DNA from: a virus
Direction: 5' to 3' (one strand)
Virus record (IMG/VR): IMGVR_UViG_3300010885_036068
Coordinates: 1 to 30,299 of that record
DNA: 30,299 bases
How positions within the stretch are numbered: position 1 is the first letter of the stretch; each line of letters begins with the position of its first letter. This document shows, piece by piece, positions 2,874 to 19,644 of this stretch. The notes below the pieces were generated by a model that did no database searches, had not been told where the DNA came from, and worked only from the letters and a program-made list of their open reading frames with translations. The position numbers and the translations under genes are program-made.

Positions 2874-3569
2874 ATGACAGATTTCAACCGAAGTGAAGAG
2901 GCAAAAAATATCTTCAAAGAAAAGAGGAAGCCTAAAAATCCGATTAGTTTTAAAATACAACTAAACGAGGAACAGAAAGAAGCAAAACAAGTCATCTTAG
3001 ACAACCCAGTTACATTATTAAAAGGTATGGCTGGATCAGGTAAAACATTAGTTGCCTGTCAAGTGGCTTTAGATTTAATGTTTAGAAAAGACATTGAACG
3101 AATTATCATTACCCGACCTACAGTAGCGAAAGAAGAAATAGGTTTCCTACCAGGTGACTTAAAAGAAAAAATGGATCCATGGTTGGCTCCTATATATGCT
3201 AACTTACATATGCTGTATGATAAGACTAAAATAGAAAAAATGGTAGCAGATGGACAAATTGAAATTGTACCATTTGCATTTATGAGAGGTAGAACATTCC
3301 CAGATGCTGTAGTAATAGTAGATGAATGTCAAAATATTACTCATGGTCAAACAGAAATGATATTAGGTCGCCTTGGTAAAGGTGGTAAAATGATATTCTG
3401 TGGAGACATCACTCAAACAGACTTAAAACAAAAGAAAGATAGTGGTATTGGATTTTTTACTCGTTTAGAGGCATCAATTAAAGGAGTAAAAGTAGTAACA
3501 TTAAAAACAAACCATCGCCACGAGATAGTAGAACCTATACTTGGATTATATGCTGAGTACAGAGACTAG
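2874..3569 (+). CDS. phoH: PhoH-like ATPase
   Basis: 231 residues, the short form typical of phages (E. coli PhoH is about 350). A Walker A motif GMAGSGKT lies at residues 51-58 and a Walker B motif VVIVDECQN has its Asp/Glu at residues 150-151; a conserved arginine-rich segment (TRPTVAKEE) follows Walker A. PhoH proteins are P-loop ATPases related to helicase and RNA-metabolism domains. They are very common in marine and freshwater phages, where their role remains unsettled. Here the gene is enclosed by structural genes and has its own motif copy and an upstream terminator, so it is probably expressed late as a short unit. It ends with TAG, one of only two genes in the window to do so. Confidence 0.93.
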   Translation: MTDFNRSEEAKNIFKEKRKPKNPISFKIQLNEEQKEAKQVILDNPVTLLKGMAGSGKTLVACQVALDLMFRKDIERIIITRPTVAKEEIGFLPGDLKEKMDPWLAPIYANLHMLYDKTKIEKMVADGQIEIVPFAFMRGRTFPDAVVIVDECQNITHGQTEMILGRLGKGGKMIFCGDITQTDLKQKKDSGIGFFTRLEASIKGVKVVTLKTNHRHEIVEPILGLYAEYRD

Positions 3570-6174: not shown

Positions 6175-6426
6175 ATGGAAAATAAAGTTTTAACACAAGA
6201 AGAAATTCAATCTTTAAAATCAATTCAACAAAACCAACTAAACTTGGTTCAAGCATTAGGAACAGTAGAGTATCGTATTCAACTTTTAGAATTAGATAAA
6301 CAAACTCTTAAATCACAACTTCAAAAACAAATTGAAGATGAAACCACAATAGCTGAGGAACTTCAAAAAAAGTATGGTGATGGAAATATTGATTTGGAAA
6401 AAGGAGAGTTTATCCCGGTCTCATGA
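6175..6426 (+). CDS. Small coiled-coil protein of unknown function
   Basis: 83 residues, nearly all predicted helix with heptad-like hydrophobic spacing (LNLVQALGTVEYRIQLLELD) and an acidic C-terminus ending DLEKGEFIPVS. It lies between the gp15-like gene and the sheath gene and has its own upstream motif. I cannot assign a function; a chaperone or tail accessory role is a guess from position. It ends in TGA, followed one codon later by a second TGA. If TGA were read as Trp the frame would run to the TAA at 6466-6468 and through the next ATATTTATC element, which makes termination at 6426 more natural here. Confidence 0.7.
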   Translation: MENKVLTQEEIQSLKSIQQNQLNLVQALGTVEYRIQLLELDKQTLKSQLQKQIEDETTIAEELQKKYGDGNIDLEKGEFIPVS

Positions 6427-9309: not shown

Positions 9310-10041
9310 ATGGAAAATAAATTTTCAACCCCAACAGAAACTGTTGACTTACCTTCACAAGGTTTAATCTATTCTGAATCATCTCCTTTATCAAGTGGTA
9401 AAATTGAAATGAAGTATATGACTGCTCGTGAAGAAGACATACTAACTAACCAAAACTACATTAGTAAAGGTACGGTATTAGATGAGTTAATTAAATCACT
9501 TATTGTATCTGACGTAAGTTATGAGGACCTAATAGTAGGCGATAAAAACGCCTTATTAGTAGCAGCTCGCATACTAGGATATGGTAAAGATTATAAATTT
9601 GAATGGGATGGTGAGGAATATAATATTGACTTAACTACTATTGAAAATAAACTTATTAACCCAAAACTATTTAAAAAAGGTGTAAATGAATTTAATTTTA
9701 CTTTACCATCAACAGGAACTGAAATAACATTTAAATTATTAACAGGTGCTGATGAGAAGAAAATTAATGCTGAGTTAGAAGGGTTAAAGAAAATAAACAG
9801 AAACGCTTCACCGGAAATATCTACTCGATTAAAATATCTTATTACATCAGTTGGTGGAAATAGAGATCCTAAAGATATTAGAAGTTTTGTTGACCAACAA
9901 TTGTTGGCTCGTGACTCCAGAGCATTAAAGGAGTATATAAAGGAGGTGCAACCAGACGTAGATCTGACCTTTTTTCCAGAAGGAAGCGATGAGAAAGTCT
10001 CAATTCCAGTTGGACTTAGCTTTTTTTGGCCTGACATCTGA
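9310..10041 (+). CDS. gp26-like baseplate hub / tail assembly protein
   Basis: 243 residues. The N-terminal ETVDLPSQGLIY and KYMTAREEDILTNQNYI segments and the C-terminal FFWPDI end are typical of the T4 gp26 family as annotated in many T4-like phages. Its position between tube and tape measure, with a second gene overlapping its 3' end in another frame, is the classical place for tail-assembly chaperones that bind the tape measure. T4 nomenclature calls gp26 a baseplate hub component; which role applies here is inference. Inside the 3' end are a perfect Shine-Dalgarno-like AAGGAGGT (9940-9947) and two T-runs. The stop is TGA; reading it as Trp would add only a few residues before TAG at 10057. 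Confidence 0.75.
   Translation: MENKFSTPTETVDLPSQGLIYSESSPLSSGKIEMKYMTAREEDILTNQNYISKGTVLDELIKSLIVSDVSYEDLIVGDKNALLVAARILGYGKDYKFEWDGEEYNIDLTTIENKLINPKLFKKGVNEFNFTLPSTGTEITFKLLTGADEKKINAELEGLKKINRNASPEISTRLKYLITSVGGNRDPKDIRSFVDQQLLARDSRALKEYIKEVQPDVDLTFFPEGSDEKVSIPVGLSFFWPDI
9940..9949 (+). promoter_or_regulatory. Internal Shine-Dalgarno-like AAGGAGGTGC
   Basis: A full anti-Shine-Dalgarno match lies inside the gp26-like gene, where other genes of this phage have none. It is about 40 nt before the ATG at 9989 and 22 nt before the T6 run at 9970. It may help initiation of the overlapping gene or a ribosomal frameshift, or it may simply encode Lys-Glu-Val. Confidence 0.35.
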
Positions 10042-10306
10042 GATAATCCCAATAGTTAGATCTAATTTATTTACTCAAATTCATGAAATAGTTTTTCATG
10101 GCCAAGGTGGTTATGACTGAGCTACAGTCTATAACATGCCTTCTTGGCTTCGCAAATTTACTTTCCATAAGTTAAAAGAACACTATGAAAAACAAAATGA
10201 ATCACAAAATGAAGATTTAGGTTCTCAAACTAGTGGTATTAAAGAAGGAAAAGTTGAACTACCATCACACTTTAAAGGTAAACTAGGTAAAGCACCTAAA
10301 TATTAA
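9989..10306 (+). CDS. Overlapping tail-assembly partner gene with internal TGA
   Basis: The reading frame, +1 relative to the gp26-like gene, starts at ATG 9989 and overlaps that gene by 53 nt. It encodes 105 residues if the TGA at 10118-10120 is read as an amino acid. Before the TGA: LDLAFFGLTSEIIPIVRSNL and FTQIHEIVFHGQGGYD. After it: ATVYNMPSWLRKFTFHKLKE and a polar Lys-rich tail. The two halves read as one continuous protein of a kind found between gp26-like and tape-measure genes of T4-like phages, in which an aromatic residue fits the interrupted position (GYD-x-ATVYNMP). Translation may start at 9989 or enter from the upstream frame by slippage on T6 (9970-9975) or T7 (10021-10027). 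A truncated 43-residue product plus re-initiation at 10135 is the alternative. Confidence 0.7.
10118..10120 (+). other. In-frame TGA codon in the tail-assembly gene
   Basis: TGA sits between GAC (Asp) and GCT (Ala) at codon 44, inside an otherwise continuous protein. Trp is the best-fitting residue and needs a single G-to-A change from TGG. The context GAY-TGA-G is shared with the TGA at 17314. Confidence 0.65.
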
Positions 10307-10345: not shown

Positions 10346-13270
10346 ATGGCATTATCTAAAGAAGAAGCAAAAGAATTAGCAGAACAACTGAAAGTAATAG
10401 AAAAACTATCAGCTAGTCTTAATAAAAATATTAACACTACTAATTTAAAAGATTTAGAAAAAAATGCTGGTGTTATTAAACATTTATTTGAATCTTTAAA
10501 TGAAGAATGGGATGAAATTACAGCCGATATTTCAGCCGCGGCTATTGGTTTTAAACAAATAACCCAAGAAGTTACTAATCAAAATATTGGTATTAGAGAC
10601 TCTGTAAAAGGCTATAATAAATTATCATCTATTTCAGAAAAAATCCAATTCCATCAAAGAGGAATATCTGATTTATCTACTAAAGAAATAAAAAAGTTAA
10701 CTGAACAAGTAAAAAAAGAAAAAGTAAGACTTGAGAATGCTCAAGAATTATTAAAAACTAAAGCAAAAGATTTTGAAGCAGATAGAATTAGTAATCTTAG
10801 TCTCCAAAATAATTTAAAAGCTCAAATTGATAAGTTAAATAAAAAGAAAGATATAACTGAAAAAGATCTTAAATTAGCTGATGAACTTGATGCAAAATTA
10901 AAAAAATCTTTAAAAGCTTACGAAAAAATTAATGAAAACATCAGTAAAAACGCAGCGGCATTAACCCAAAATGCAGCTATAATAGCTGATGAAGATGAGT
11001 TATTTAAAGGTTTAGTACTTACATTACAAAGAGTAGGAGACGAAGTAGCAGAAATTGATAGTCTTCTTGGTTTAGGTGGAGCAGCAGCCCAAGGTTTAAG
11101 CTCAGCTTTAAGTGGATTAGGATTTTCAGAATTAGCTACTAAACTTGGTATAGATGAGGCTAATGAAAAAATGAAAGAATTAGCTGAAGAAATTAGAAAA
11201 GCTGATGGAGATACTAATACATTCGCTAATAAATTTAAAGTATTAAAAGCAGGGATTGGTTCAATGGGTAAATCACTCATGGAAAATTTAAAAGATCCAT
11301 TAGCTGTTAGTACATTTTTTGTTGATCAACTTATAAGTGCATTTACAGTTTTAGACGACTCAGCGGGTAAATTAGCTAAAAACTTTGGTATATCATATAA
11401 ATCTGCTTTAGGAATATCAGACTCATTAAACACAGCTGCTAATAAATCTTATTTATTAAATGTTACCACTGCGGGTTTAACAGAAGCTTTCATTGAATTA
11501 AATAATCAATTTGGAACATTTGCTAATATAAGTGAAGAAGCATTAACCTCATACACTCGATTAACACAGGAAGCAGGTGTTACTTCTGAAGCTGCTAAGG
11601 CTTTATTTAGCACTACAGTACTAACTGGAAAAGAAGTTGAAGCATCTACCTCAGAATTCCTAGGTCAAGCAGCTGCTTTAGCAGCCTCTAAAGGTTTAGC
11701 TTTAAATGAAAAACAAATATTAGAAGATATACAACATATATCTAAAGCTACTTTACTAACATTAGGTGGACAACCTGAAGAACTAGCTAAAGCAGTTGTT
11801 GAATCTAAAGCATTAGGTGTTAGTTTAGAAAAAGTTGAAGCTATAGCTGGTTCACTACTCCAATTTGAAGACAGCATATCAGCTGAATTAGAAGCTGAAT
11901 TATTAACAGGCAAAGAACTTAATTTAGAAAAAGCTAGACTAGCTGCTTTAAATGGAGACATAGCTACAGTAGCTTCAGAAATAGCTAAACAAACAGGAAC
12001 AGCAGCAGACTTTACTAAAATGAATGTTATTCAACAAGAAGCATTAGCTAAATCTGTTGGAATGACTCGAGAAGATTTAGCTCAATCTTTATTAGAAAGA
12101 GAAGCAATGGCTAGATTATCTGGAGTAGAAGGTAAAAGTGCTAAAGAAAAATTTGATAATTTAGTTAAAGAAGTAGGATTAGAAGAAGCTAAAAAACGTT
12201 TAGGAGACGAAAATTTAGCTAATTTATACTCAGGCCAGAATATACAAGAAAGATTTGCTGCTTCTATGGAGAAATTAAAAGAAGTATTTGTATCATTAGC
12301 AGAACCATTAATGCCTGTTTTAGATGTATTCATGGGGATATTTGATGTAATAGCTCCAATAGTTGGGGTATTAGGACAAATGGTTAAATGGACTGTACAA
12401 TTAGGTAAATACTTATTGCCTATATATGGTATATATAAAGGTATTCAAATAATACAAACATCTACTTTAGCTGTAAATAGAGCAAATTATGCTCTTAAAG
12501 CTTTACAATTAGGTCAAGAATCTTTTATTTCACGTGAAAAAAAGGTTCAAGGAATAATGGAAAAACAAAGTCTTGGAACTAGAGTAGTATACAACGCGCA
12601 ATTATTATTAAGTTTAATAAAAGAACAAGGAATAACTGGTCTTAAAACTTATGCTTTAACATTAGATGAAAAGAGTTTAGCTAAAAAAGTAATAATGGCT
12701 AGCTTTAGTGCTGCTGAATTTGTTAGAGAAAAAATAACATTAGGATGGAAGAGAACAAGAAACTTATTAGAGGTTGGATACAATGCTCTTAAATTACAAG
12801 GAGCAACAATATCTAAAACAGAATTAATTAGAAATATAGGTACAGCAGCTATGTCAGCTATATCATCCCTTTCTAAAATCCCAGTTATTGGTTGGGCTTT
12901 AGGTTTAGCAGCAGCAGGTGTTTCTGTAGCTTTAGGTTATAAATTCTTAAAAGGTAATGACGTTATGTCTGCTGGTAAAGGATCAAATGGATATGGTAAA
13001 CGTACTTTGTTAGCACCTGAAGGAGCAATAGCGTTAAATGATAAAGATACTGTTATAGCAGGAACTGACTTAGAAGGTAAAGGTAAAGGTAAAGGTAAAC
13101 AACAAGCACAACAATCTTCTTCACCATCTATTAATTTACAACCTATGATAGACAAACTATCAGCTGTAGAGAATGTACTTAATCAAATACTAAATAAAAA
13201 TAGTGATGTATATATGGATTCTACAAAAGTAGGAACAGCACTAAACATAGGTTCTGTTCAGATTCAATAA
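10346..13270 (+). CDS. Tail tape measure protein
   Basis: 974 residues, identified by position (after tube and chaperone-like genes), size and architecture rather than by clear similarity to T4 gp29. The N-terminal quarter is rich in charged coiled-coil helix (for example KLNKKKDITEKDLKLADELD). The centre is Ala/Leu/Glu-rich helix with phage tape-measure character (FFVDQLISAFTVLDDSAGKL). Two hydrophobic stretches lie at residues about 651-705 and 833-867 and could insert in the host inner membrane at DNA ejection. A Gly-Lys repeat (GKGKGKGK, near residue 910) precedes a short C-terminal helix. At about 1.5 Å per residue the helical length would give a tail of very roughly 130-145 nm, longer than T4; this is inference. 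It has its own upstream motif copy. Confidence 0.86.
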   Translation: MALSKEEAKELAEQLKVIEKLSASLNKNINTTNLKDLEKNAGVIKHLFESLNEEWDEITADISAAAIGFKQITQEVTNQNIGIRDSVKGYNKLSSISEKIQFHQRGISDLSTKEIKKLTEQVKKEKVRLENAQELLKTKAKDFEADRISNLSLQNNLKAQIDKLNKKKDITEKDLKLADELDAKLKKSLKAYEKINENISKNAAALTQNAAIIADEDELFKGLVLTLQRVGDEVAEIDSLLGLGGAAAQGLSSALSGLGFSELATKLGIDEANEKMKELAEEIRKADGDTNTFANKFKVLKAGIGSMGKSLMENLKDPLAVSTFFVDQLISAFTVLDDSAGKLAKNFGISYKSALGISDSLNTAANKSYLLNVTTAGLTEAFIELNNQFGTFANISEEALTSYTRLTQEAGVTSEAAKALFSTTVLTGKEVEASTSEFLGQAAALAASKGLALNEKQILEDIQHISKATLLTLGGQPEELAKAVVESKALGVSLEKVEAIAGSLLQFEDSISAELEAELLTGKELNLEKARLAALNGDIATVASEIAKQTGTAADFTKMNVIQQEALAKSVGMTREDLAQSLLEREAMARLSGVEGKSAKEKFDNLVKEVGLEEAKKRLGDENLANLYSGQNIQERFAASMEKLKEVFVSLAEPLMPVLDVFMGIFDVIAPIVGVLGQMVKWTVQLGKYLLPIYGIYKGIQIIQTSTLAVNRANYALKALQLGQESFISREKKVQGIMEKQSLGTRVVYNAQLLLSLIKEQGITGLKTYALTLDEKSLAKKVIMASFSAAEFVREKITLGWKRTRNLLEVGYNALKLQGATISKTELIRNIGTAAMSAISSLSKIPVIGWALGLAAAGVSVALGYKFLKGNDVMSAGKGSNGYGKRTLLAPEGAIALNDKDTVIAGTDLEGKGKGKGKQQAQQSSSPSINLQPMIDKLSAVENVLNQILNKNSDVYMDSTKVGTALNIGSVQIQ

Positions 13271-16221: not shown

Positions 16222-19200
16222 ATGCCTAGAGATATTATTGGTGAAAGTTTTAAACCCTACGTGGCTAAACAAATTGATGTTAGACAAACTGCGCTAGGTA
16301 TATATAGAGAAAGAGACCCAGATTTATTAAAATATATAAATAATAATACATCTTGGGTTAGATTATCTTCTGGAGTTAATATAACCTATGAAAAAGCAAA
16401 AGAACTAGGAGTTACTAACTTCTCAGGTAATCTTTTAGCTAAAAAATCAGTATTATTTTCAGCTAGAAAATATGAAAATTATAGTGCTGGGGCATATGAG
16501 GGAGACTTTACTCATGGTATAGGTTATACTTTACAAAACCCATCATATGGTTACACACCTGCAATTGGTTTAGCAGGAAACGATTTAACAGAAGTAGATC
16601 CTTCTAAATATGGTCTAGTACCACCACCAGGTATAATATCAGCTGATATTAAATCATTAAATAGAGGTTCATTAAGAGAAGCTACGGTTGAAATAGTATG
16701 CCATAGTTTAGCTCAATTTCGAATATTAGAAGCATTATATTTAAAACTAAAATTTAGTATGTTTCTAGAATGGGGACATACTTTATGGTATGACAACACT
16801 GGTACACTTCGTAATGATATGCCCGATTGGATACATCAAGGTTTCTTAAATGGAGATTATGACCAAGATAAAATGTTGGAAATATTAGAACAAGAAAGAG
16901 AAAAATTTTGTGGAAACTATGATGGGTACTTAGGATATGTTAAAAATTTCGATTGGGAATTAAGACAAGATGGAGGATATAATATAACATTAAAACTTAT
17001 ATCTATAGGTGATGTTATTGAATCCCTAAAACTTAATATGAATTACCCAGGCGTAAATGATAATAGTACAGCAGAAGAACAAAAAAATCTTCCACCAGTC
17101 ATGGTTAATAAAAATAAGTCTACAATAAATCAAATATTGTACGCTATTAGAAGTGAGATGGATCAACATGCTGAAGAAGGTACAATAAATGGATTTAATA
17201 ATGGAGGAACTAGCGTTAGTTTATCAGCTAGTGAGATTGTTAGGATGACAAAAAATAATTCTTATTTTGATTTAATCAAACCTAATTATTTTGATCCTAA
17301 AGAAGTAACAGATTGAGATAAAGCTAGTAATATTTTAGTATATCAAGAAGTTATAAGAAATAAATATTATAGTTTATTAACAGACAATGATGGAGAATTT
17401 ACTGAAGGTTATTTCTATTATATGAAATTAGGATCATTATTAAGAATAATAGAATCCTTTTTATTAAAATATGATACTTCTAAATCTAATGCTGATGGTG
17501 TTCATAAACCTATATTTTATATAGACCATGATTTTGATTCTAATTTATGTTTAACTATACCTAACCAAGGAAGTTCAGATCCACAAGTATGTTTACTAAA
17601 ACCATCAGACAACTCAGCTCAAGGTGGAGGTAGTGGAACTGCTTCCGCTAAACAAACATACACTAAATATACTTATCTAGTAAAATCAGACATACTTAGT
17701 GACAAATATATCCAAAGAGAAAGTTTAACACCAGGTGTTACTGCTGATGATGCTGATTTTAATAGTTTTGATGCTTATGTAATTAAATATCCCCCTAATG
17801 AAATCCAAGGAGGAGAAACTGATGGTGATAAGTTTGAAAAAATTGAATTTTACGAAGAAGGAGATAGTAGTAATACCTATCTAACAACATCAGGTAATAC
17901 AACATTTTATTTTGATGATTATTATTATCTTTACCTACCTGATGGAGATGGAATATCATATAATACTGAAGATGACATTGAAGTAGCAGAAACTTGGTGG
18001 ACTACTAGTTGGATGGAAGGAGCTTCATCTACTGTAGATAATGCTAAAAACTTATCAGGTTTAGGTGATTATTTTAGAGTTAATGGGTATCCATTCTTAG
18101 GTAAATTTATGCATATCCATGTTAATTTAGATTATATAGCCACTACATTAGCAAACAACATAGATGAAGAAGGAAAAATATCATTATATGCATTCTTATC
18201 ACAACTAATGAAAGGAATTTCAGATGCTACAGGACAAATAAATACATTTGAATTAATATATGATGATTTAACTAACTATTTTTATATAATAGATAGTAAT
18301 ACTCTCCCAGGAGCAGGTGAATACTTAGGTAAAAATACTATCCCAACAAGACTTAATGTTAATTTATTAAATGTAAATGAAGGTAGTTTTGTAAAAGAAG
18401 TATCAATTAAAAGTGAGTTAGATAATAAATTTGCAGCTACTATATCAATAGGTGCTCAAGCTAATGGTAATAAAGTAGGAGAAAACGCTACTGCCTTAAG
18501 TAAATTAAATGTTGGGTATGAAGATAGAATACTTAAAGAAAAATCTAGTATAATAGACTCTTCAACAGAAGACACAACAACAACCGATGGATCTGGTTCA
18601 ATTTCTCCTCAACAAGCATATGCTAATAACTTAGCACAATATGCTGGGCTTATTAATAAACTCCAACTGGGAACAATAACACCAGATGATATTACTAGTG
18701 GTACAGATGCTGTTGTTGATTTATTTAAATATCAATTAGGATACTATACTCAACAAGGAAACATTGGTGGTGTTGGATTTATTCCTATTAACCTTCAATT
18801 ATCAATGAAGGGACTTAGTGGACCTAGAATATATGAATCTTATACTATAAATGATGAAATACTTCCTGACAACTATAGAAATAATATCCAGTTCATAGCT
18901 AAAGGAGTATCTCATAAAATTAGTGATAATGATTGGGTTACTACTTTAGAAAGTCTTAGTGGCCCTAGACAAAGTAGTTTAAAACCATTAGGAAGTGAAA
19001 ACTTCATAACAGGTGATGGAGGTACTGGAGGAAATTATCAACCTAACCCAGATAATAACAAACCAGTAGTAAATGAAAATGCTACCCCAACAGAAAACTC
19101 AATTATAGAAGCAACACCTACTAACCCAGGAGCATGGATCATAGTTAATGGTGATAAAAGAATTGACTCTGCTTATAAATTAAGAGCACATCACTCTGAA

Positions 19201-19644
19201 AAACAAAACTGGCAAGCTGATCCTAATAATATTAGAAGTGGAGGTTGGACTAGAACATTTGGAAGTAATACTAAAGGTGCAGCAGCATATGTATATGATT
19301 TAGTCTTGTATAGAGATGAAGGAAATGGAGTAACTAATAGACCTTCAGTACCATCCCCAGTAAATGGAAAAATTGTTCAACTTAATAGAGTTAAAGATTC
19401 ATATATTACAATTGAAGAAGAAACTACAAAAGAATGGTATAGATTATTACATATGGATAACTTTACAGTTGGGGTAGGTGACACAGTCACTAGAGGTCAA
19501 TTAATTGGAAAACAAAGTGATATAATGACTGGAAAAAATAAAAATGGAAAACCATTTAAGAAAAATGTCCATTTACATGTAGAGTTTCCTAATGGAGGAG
19601 TATTAATAAATTATATACATGACTTATTTAATAATACATTCTAA
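16222..19644 (+). CDS. Tail hub/spike protein with C-terminal M23-like domain, interrupted by TGA
   Basis: The reading frame is continuous from 16222 to 19644 except for one TGA at 17314-17316; read through, it gives 1,140 residues. The part before the TGA (364 residues) has the aspect of a baseplate hub protein (FRILEALYLKLKFSMFLEWG, then GYLGYVKNFDWELRQDGGYN). The frame stays open after the TGA with sensible protein (DKASNILVYQEVIRNKYYSL) before the next ATG at 17422, so the second half is not a separate gene with a clean start. The C-terminus (about 970-1135) resembles an M23 peptidase: Asp1026, RLLHMDNF with His1077, GDTVTRGQLIGKQ, and VHLHVEF with His1117 and His1119. The first zinc-ligand position (Asp minus 4) is Ala1022, so activity is doubtful. 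A combined T4 gp27/gp5-like hub and lysin role is inferred. The alternative is two genes, 16222-17316 and 17422-19644. Confidence 0.75.
17314..17316 (+). other. In-frame TGA codon in the hub gene
   Basis: TGA lies between GAT (Asp) and GAT (Asp) at codon 365. The frame remains open for another 775 sense codons. No start codon or leader follows closely, and the 35 codons between the TGA and the next ATG look like real protein. Confidence 0.75.

Follow-up and report, generated by a model that had tools for sequence, protein, structure and literature searches.

The TGA codon at 10118-10120 of this virus record is, judged by comparison with its relatives, a private nonsense change (a variant rare within the phage population) or an error in the consensus, and not a recoded codon. 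Very probably, this private G-to-A change falls in the +1 extension of an upstream chaperone gene of the gp26/gp51 family, reached through a programmed frameshift like that of lambda G/GT, the direction of the shift being probably +1. The private change, the absence of a start, and the conserved site and frames are evident at the level of sequence, and a structure model of the upstream protein has a probable chaperone-like fold. The whole record analyzed, 30,299 bases of DNA, is referred to here as the window, and its relevant features are collected in Table 1.

Table 1. Coordinates of features discussed in the text, with the observation on which each is based.
Feature	Position	Strand	Observation
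Frame-0 gene, 243 aa, ends WPDI-TGA; proposed short tail assembly chaperone (gpG-like)	9310..10041	+	PF12322, PHROG, model
Second private G>A (AGG Arg -> AAG Lys, frame 0)	9929..9929	+	G in 52/52 aligned relatives
Proposed frameshift site TTT TTT TGG CCT GAC (frame-0 codons)	10021..10035	+	Near-invariant in 91 non-redundant loci
+1-frame extension, 92 codons + TAA; gpT-like C-terminal part of proposed fusion	10028..10306	+	Conserved protein, no own start
Frame-0 stop TGA, genuine, conserved position	10039..10041	+	TGA 67, TAA 21, TAG 3 (91 loci)
Private TGA	10118..10120	+	G at 10120 in 53/53 relatives aligned at DNA level, 3 near-identical contigs included
Large gene, 974 aa, located where the tail tape measure gene is expected	10346..13270	+	Syntenic immuto gene annotated tail tape measure protein
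TGA interrupting hub-like gene 16222-19644	17314..17316	+	TGG in closest relatives

A stop codon private to one contig

The TGA lies within the +1-frame ORF 9989-10306 (105 aa with TGA read as Trp), in the context GGYD-*-ATVYNMPSWLRK of the window sequence. An earlier reading, made from the sequence alone, had described the surrounding segment as one continuous protein in which an aromatic residue fits at the TGA, and relatives agree on both points. The segment is strongly conserved, Trp is the ancestral residue, and the position is aromatic in each of 117 distinct relatives (Trp 109, Tyr 8). By codon, the 117 distinct contexts from all loci divide into TGG 109, TAT 5, TAC 3, and TGA 0; no sense TGA is thus conserved across the clade.

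When viral contigs were scanned with the read-through protein, 288 relatives were returned, and all of the best 80 of these, which were kept, have TGG at 10118-10120. Three contigs, L002 (99.952% identical to the window over 4,159 bases), L003 (99.977% over 8,804 bases), and L004 (99.963% over 8,032 bases), are by this degree of identity the same phage as the window, and each has TGG at the codon in question. Exactly two differences from the window are common to the three, at 9929 and 10120, where the window has A and the contigs have G. Against the closest contig, 8.8 kb of alignment contain just two differing sites, each a private G-to-A change of the window. The scans gave no near-identical contigs besides these three for the remaining parts of the window. 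The sequence-only reading had allowed for a G-to-A change, as is now seen from the G at 10120 of all relatives alignable at DNA level, and had named reads with TGG, together with no other sense TGA in the genome, as evidence against its own proposal of a sense codon; at the level of contigs, TGG is what other data contain. The few differences among the near-identical contigs are all G to A, two of them confined to the window and one to L004 (window position 12513).

Either the private G-to-A changes are rare real variants, or they arose from damage or low-coverage consensus errors. Some 6% of all G:C>A:T changes that could occur in the coding sequence of the window would create a stop. A handful of private G-to-A changes can therefore include one or two nonsense changes without any special cause, although two in one contig is somewhat above expectation at this rate and tells against the private-change reading.

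The second sense-like TGA, in the hub-like gene, is present where the sequence-only reading had put it. With this codon read as Trp, 16222-17316 is joined to 17422-19644 in one frame of 1140 aa, the C-terminal part of which carries an M23 peptidase domain scoring just under the Pfam cutoff. G stands at 17316 in 4/4 alignments, which represent two contigs, each fetched twice and both with TGG. The private status of the hub TGA is less certain, since these two contigs, about 75% identical at the protein level, are the only ones clearly aligned at the position. An exact-pattern scan returned no near-identical contig covering it.

The frame-0 gene and its neighborhood

The protein encoded by the frame-0 gene 9310-10041 matches PF12322 (T4_baseplate) at 28.9 bits, against a gathering cutoff of 24.5, and PHROG 150 (phrog_150, baseplate hub) at 1.6e-11. 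T4 gp26 and gp51 both match PF12322 (215.6 and 177.5 bits, respectively), as do the distant homologues L178-L180 (57-89 bits). No signal was obtained with hhalign between the frame-0 alignment and single T4 gp26/gp51 sequences, or between the extension and single T4 gp51 or gp28 sequences, so the link to the T4 gp26/gp51 family rests on Pfam and the intermediates.

An AlphaFold2 model of the frame-0 protein (pLDDT 90) has matches among predicted structures of T4-like proteins, both baseplate hub and hub-assembly chaperone. Its best PDB match is B. subtilis YqbN (Z 5.7, rmsd 4.1, 88 aligned), followed by HK97 gp13 (Z 4.7, rmsd 4.0, 91 aligned) and a phage-satellite protein (Z 3.8), with the next row at 2.4 and all Z values below 8. 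A published comparison names YqbN and HK97 gp13 as tail assembly chaperones, each giving Z 4.4-4.5 with a further member (PMC9603447); the values found here are thus what divergent chaperone members give each other. A PDB sequence search with the frame-0 protein returned no match.

The gene order of the window is T4-type, comprising the Gp23 major capsid protein, sheath, tube, 9310-10041, and 10346-13270, with the frame-0 gene and its extension directly upstream of the last. A PhoH-like ATPase, recognized by eye, is encoded at 2874-3569, just after the Gp23-like capsid gene.

The extension and its probable route of expression

The ORF 9989-10306 is in the +1 frame relative to the frame-0 gene, and this relation is conserved in relatives. 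Within the extension, amino acids are conserved and synonymous codons vary freely (Gly columns have 1.7-1.9 bits of entropy), which argues that it must be translated. The ATG at 9989, taken as the gene start in the sequence-only reading, is missing from most relatives and is replaced by ACG (9989-9991) in L007, whose DNA is 91.5% identical to the window.

Start codons were tallied across 91 non-redundant loci, i.e. loci less than 90% identical to one another. Upstream of the site in the +1 frame an ATG is found in the window and in 16/91 loci, where initiation is formally possible, and 14/91 loci have no ATG, GTG or TTG there. The first downstream ATG of the +1 frame is codon 36 in 74/91 loci, past much of the conserved segment. 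In L073, L080, L081, L104, L132, and L176 a +1-frame stop occurs directly before the T-run, and in several relatives it is within 1-3 codons of the site. With no start common to all loci, the upstream frame is the only shared route into the extension. An own start for the +1 ORF, whether ATG 9989, TTG or CTG, was considered and rejected on the evidence of the relatives.

The extension by itself is predicted to be helical, at low confidence (pLDDT 67), and this model gave no useful fold match. In the isolated Flavobacterium phage immuto (L092:5025-5273) the extension gene, immuto35A_232, is annotated from an internal ATG, leaving the conserved stretch between the shift site and that ATG unannotated. 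Disruption of the site is seen at L129:2700-3100 (IMGVR_UViG_3300007734_000912), where the extension carries an in-frame ATG of its own and an ORF resembling a homing endonuclease by eye is located directly upstream.

The proposed frameshift site

Conservation of the site is close to complete. The codon pair ahead of the A site reads TTTTTT in 89/91 loci (CTTTTT in 1, TTTCTT in 1), the codon in the A site is TGG in 89/91 (TAC in 1, TTC in 1), CCTGAC comes next in 86/91, and a frame-0 stop occupies the fourth codon after the A site in 83/91. The motif is present in 116/117 distinct contexts. Codon entropy over the 91 loci is 0 at the F, F, P, and D columns of the site, compared with 0.35-0.60 at other Phe, 0.9-1.8 at Pro, and 0.4-1.0 at Asp columns of the same gene. 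Part of the motif is required for inclusion in the 91-locus tally; nearly all loci found by protein patterns at least 28 residues beyond the site nevertheless carry it, so its conservation is not a search artefact. Coding in two frames accounts for part of the CCTGAC conservation. The third base of the first TTT is conserved beyond what a single +1 slip at the second TTT explains, a pattern that would also be compatible with a -2 shift or with slippage along the entire run.

Sites outside the window clade vary in a way that bears on direction. The immuto site is TTT-CTT-TGG-CCT-GAC, preceded by AGC, and Microcystis phage Mel-JY01 also carries the proposed frameshift arrangement. The distant Streptococcus phage GXN1 has TTC TTT CGT and the huge phage record LR756508 has TTT CTA TTC. 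Re-pairing in the P site after a +1 shift would be UUU->UUU in the window clade, CUU->UUU in immuto, and UUU->UUC in GXN1 and LR756508. The site of Listeria LIS04 is compatible with either +1 or -2. GXN1 and LIS04 are weaker cases, as the extension in each could have its own ATG. In another huge phage record, LR756511 (L181:3150-3350), the extension of the same PF12322 gene seems to be in the -1 frame, at GGT TTT TTC; frameshifts of this class are known to differ in direction from phage to phage (PMC5009743).

The alignment shows no conserved RNA structure near the site, folding of the single downstream sequence gave a z of -0.69, and no Shine-Dalgarno-like element was seen upstream by eye. 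Such an element or RNA structure occurs in many known +1 frameshifts and is not required in all. The 126 bases 3' of the site (relatives of 10028-10155) fold slightly better than dinucleotide shuffles, at a mean z of -1.6 and with no consensus structure.

Alternative explanations

Full code-4 usage had been argued against by the sequence-only reading, and correctly so. Window genes contain 87 TGG codons, TGA terminates three further genes (at 6426, 10041, and 21862), and the frame-0 TGA stop is conserved in position; code 4 is ruled out for this phage. In its place the same reading proposed rare recoding, read-through under regulation, or a suppressor that makes the change tolerable; none of these is supported, the TGA being absent from the near-identical contigs and from every relative. 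That a sense TGA arises through rare recoding, programmed read-through, or a phage or host suppressor tRNA decoding it as Trp is now scarcely credible. Such decoding would account for Trp or Tyr at the position in every relative and for two such codons in one contig, but it has to contend with TGG in all close relatives, with the abundance of TGG codons in the window, and with a TGA that serves as a genuine stop at 10039, only 79 bases upstream. The suppressor tRNA suggested earlier, which would have a UCA anticodon, was sought as well, and no tRNA gene was found in the 30-kb window, a fragment of the genome for which this result is weak. Phages that use code 4, or TGA for Trp, likewise have TGA at Trp positions, whereas the window TGA is private to the contig and TGA also acts as a stop there. 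A single comparison with near-identical contigs removes recoding and voids that finding, and it counsels caution, in that nonsense codons known from a single contig need a population check.

Two other explanations concern how the extension is reached. The sequence-only reading treated 9989-10306 as an independent overlapping gene, which could start at ATG 9989 or at a TTG, GTG or CTG near the site; the evidence favors an extension of 9310-10041 expressed by frameshifting, and an independent gene is very improbable. Its ATG in the window, and the ATG, GTG or TTG found upstream in the +1 frame of 77/91 non-redundant loci, are offset by the loss of that ATG in most relatives, by the loci with none of these codons or with a stop close to the site, and by the CTG of the site being CTA or CTT elsewhere, and an independent gene would leave the conserved T-run and frame-0 stop position unexplained. 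The frame relation of the extension demands a shift of +1 or -2. Slippage of the ribosome by -2, or of transcription on the T7 run, in place of +1 ribosomal slippage is unlikely. A -2 shift, as phage Mu employs (PMC5009743), would enter that frame too, and near-invariance extends over the final six T of the run, beyond what one +1 slip requires. Transcriptional slippage is improbable in immuto, however, where the sequence TTTCTTT has no run of more than three T. The CTT->TTT +1 shift is the known prfB slip, which the immuto site resembles, and in GXN1 and LR756508 the TTT-C would permit re-pairing after +1 but not after -2.

Proposed mechanism

The gene order, predicted frameshift, and probable fold, all resembling those of G/GT, lead to the proposal that a short and a long chaperone are made by +1 slippage; that slippage occurs, and that it goes by +1 and not by -2, is inferred, as are its efficiency and role. 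Most ribosomes would read 9310-10041 to the stop at 10039 and yield the short chaperone. A minority would slip +1 on TTT-TTT-T before TGG and add about 92 residues, giving a chaperone-extension fusion of about 331 aa. In the most likely slip, the Phe-tRNA on TTT 10024-10026 would move +1 to 10025-10027, and the extended product would depend on the slip-site sequence TTTTTTTGG. By analogy with lambda gpG/gpGT, coating of the tape measure protein may fall to the short form and recruitment of tail tube subunits to the long form, and the ratio of the two would then matter for tail assembly. From the genome with TGA the short form would be normal, and the long form would be cut after 30 extension residues, at about 269 aa. 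If the change is real, this genome is probably defective in tail assembly or dependent on a co-infecting wild type.

Relation to known systems and significance

Lambda produces gpG, which binds the tape measure protein, and through a -1 frameshift also gpGT, whose T part serves to recruit tube subunits (PMC5009743). The window resembles it in having a gene for a short, putative chaperone immediately before the tape measure gene, a proposed slippery site near the 3' end of the chaperone gene, and a C-terminal extension in another frame; the modelled fold of the short protein is probably chaperone-like as well. It differs in the shift, -1 in lambda and +1 (or -2) in the window, and in that the short protein of the window belongs to the T4 gp26/gp51 family and not to the lambda gpG family. 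A 2016 review describes wide conservation of the G-T frameshift among phages with long tails, "except T4" (PMC5009743). T4 gp26 and gp51 (baseplate hub and hub assembly chaperone) are in the same PF12322 and PHROG family as the window gene, but in the annotated T4 record they are two separate genes with no frameshift extension annotated, and gene 29 is preceded by gene 28. Phage P2 has the E/E+E' frameshift at T7G, with a shift of -1. The window is similar in placing a T-run slippery site in the tail operon of a contractile-tail phage, and dissimilar in a frame relation that needs +1 or -2. Listeria phage PSA has +1 shifts on CCC that adjoin a stop or a pseudoknot (PMC5009743), and shares with the window a +1 frameshift in a phage structural operon, whereas in the window the site is rich in U and UGG, a sense codon, occupies the A site.

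No description of this frameshift, in T4-like phages or in the gp26/gp51 family, was found in the open-access literature searched. The sequence comparisons give good support for predicting a known mechanism in a family for which it is apparently undescribed so far. A broader proposal, for which the chances appear about even, is that gp26/gp51 represents the G/GT chaperone of the T4 lineage, with a large aquatic T4-related clade making two forms from one gene by a +1 frameshift at a near-invariant site; T4 may use the paralogues 26 and 51. At the level of annotation, isolates such as immuto carry a mis-annotated gene that is missing most of the conserved part of the extension. The tail-chaperone frameshift would be extended to T4-related myoviruses, of which T4 had been described as an exception, and the findings suggest a tail-assembly-chaperone role for gp26/gp51 proteins now labelled baseplate hub.
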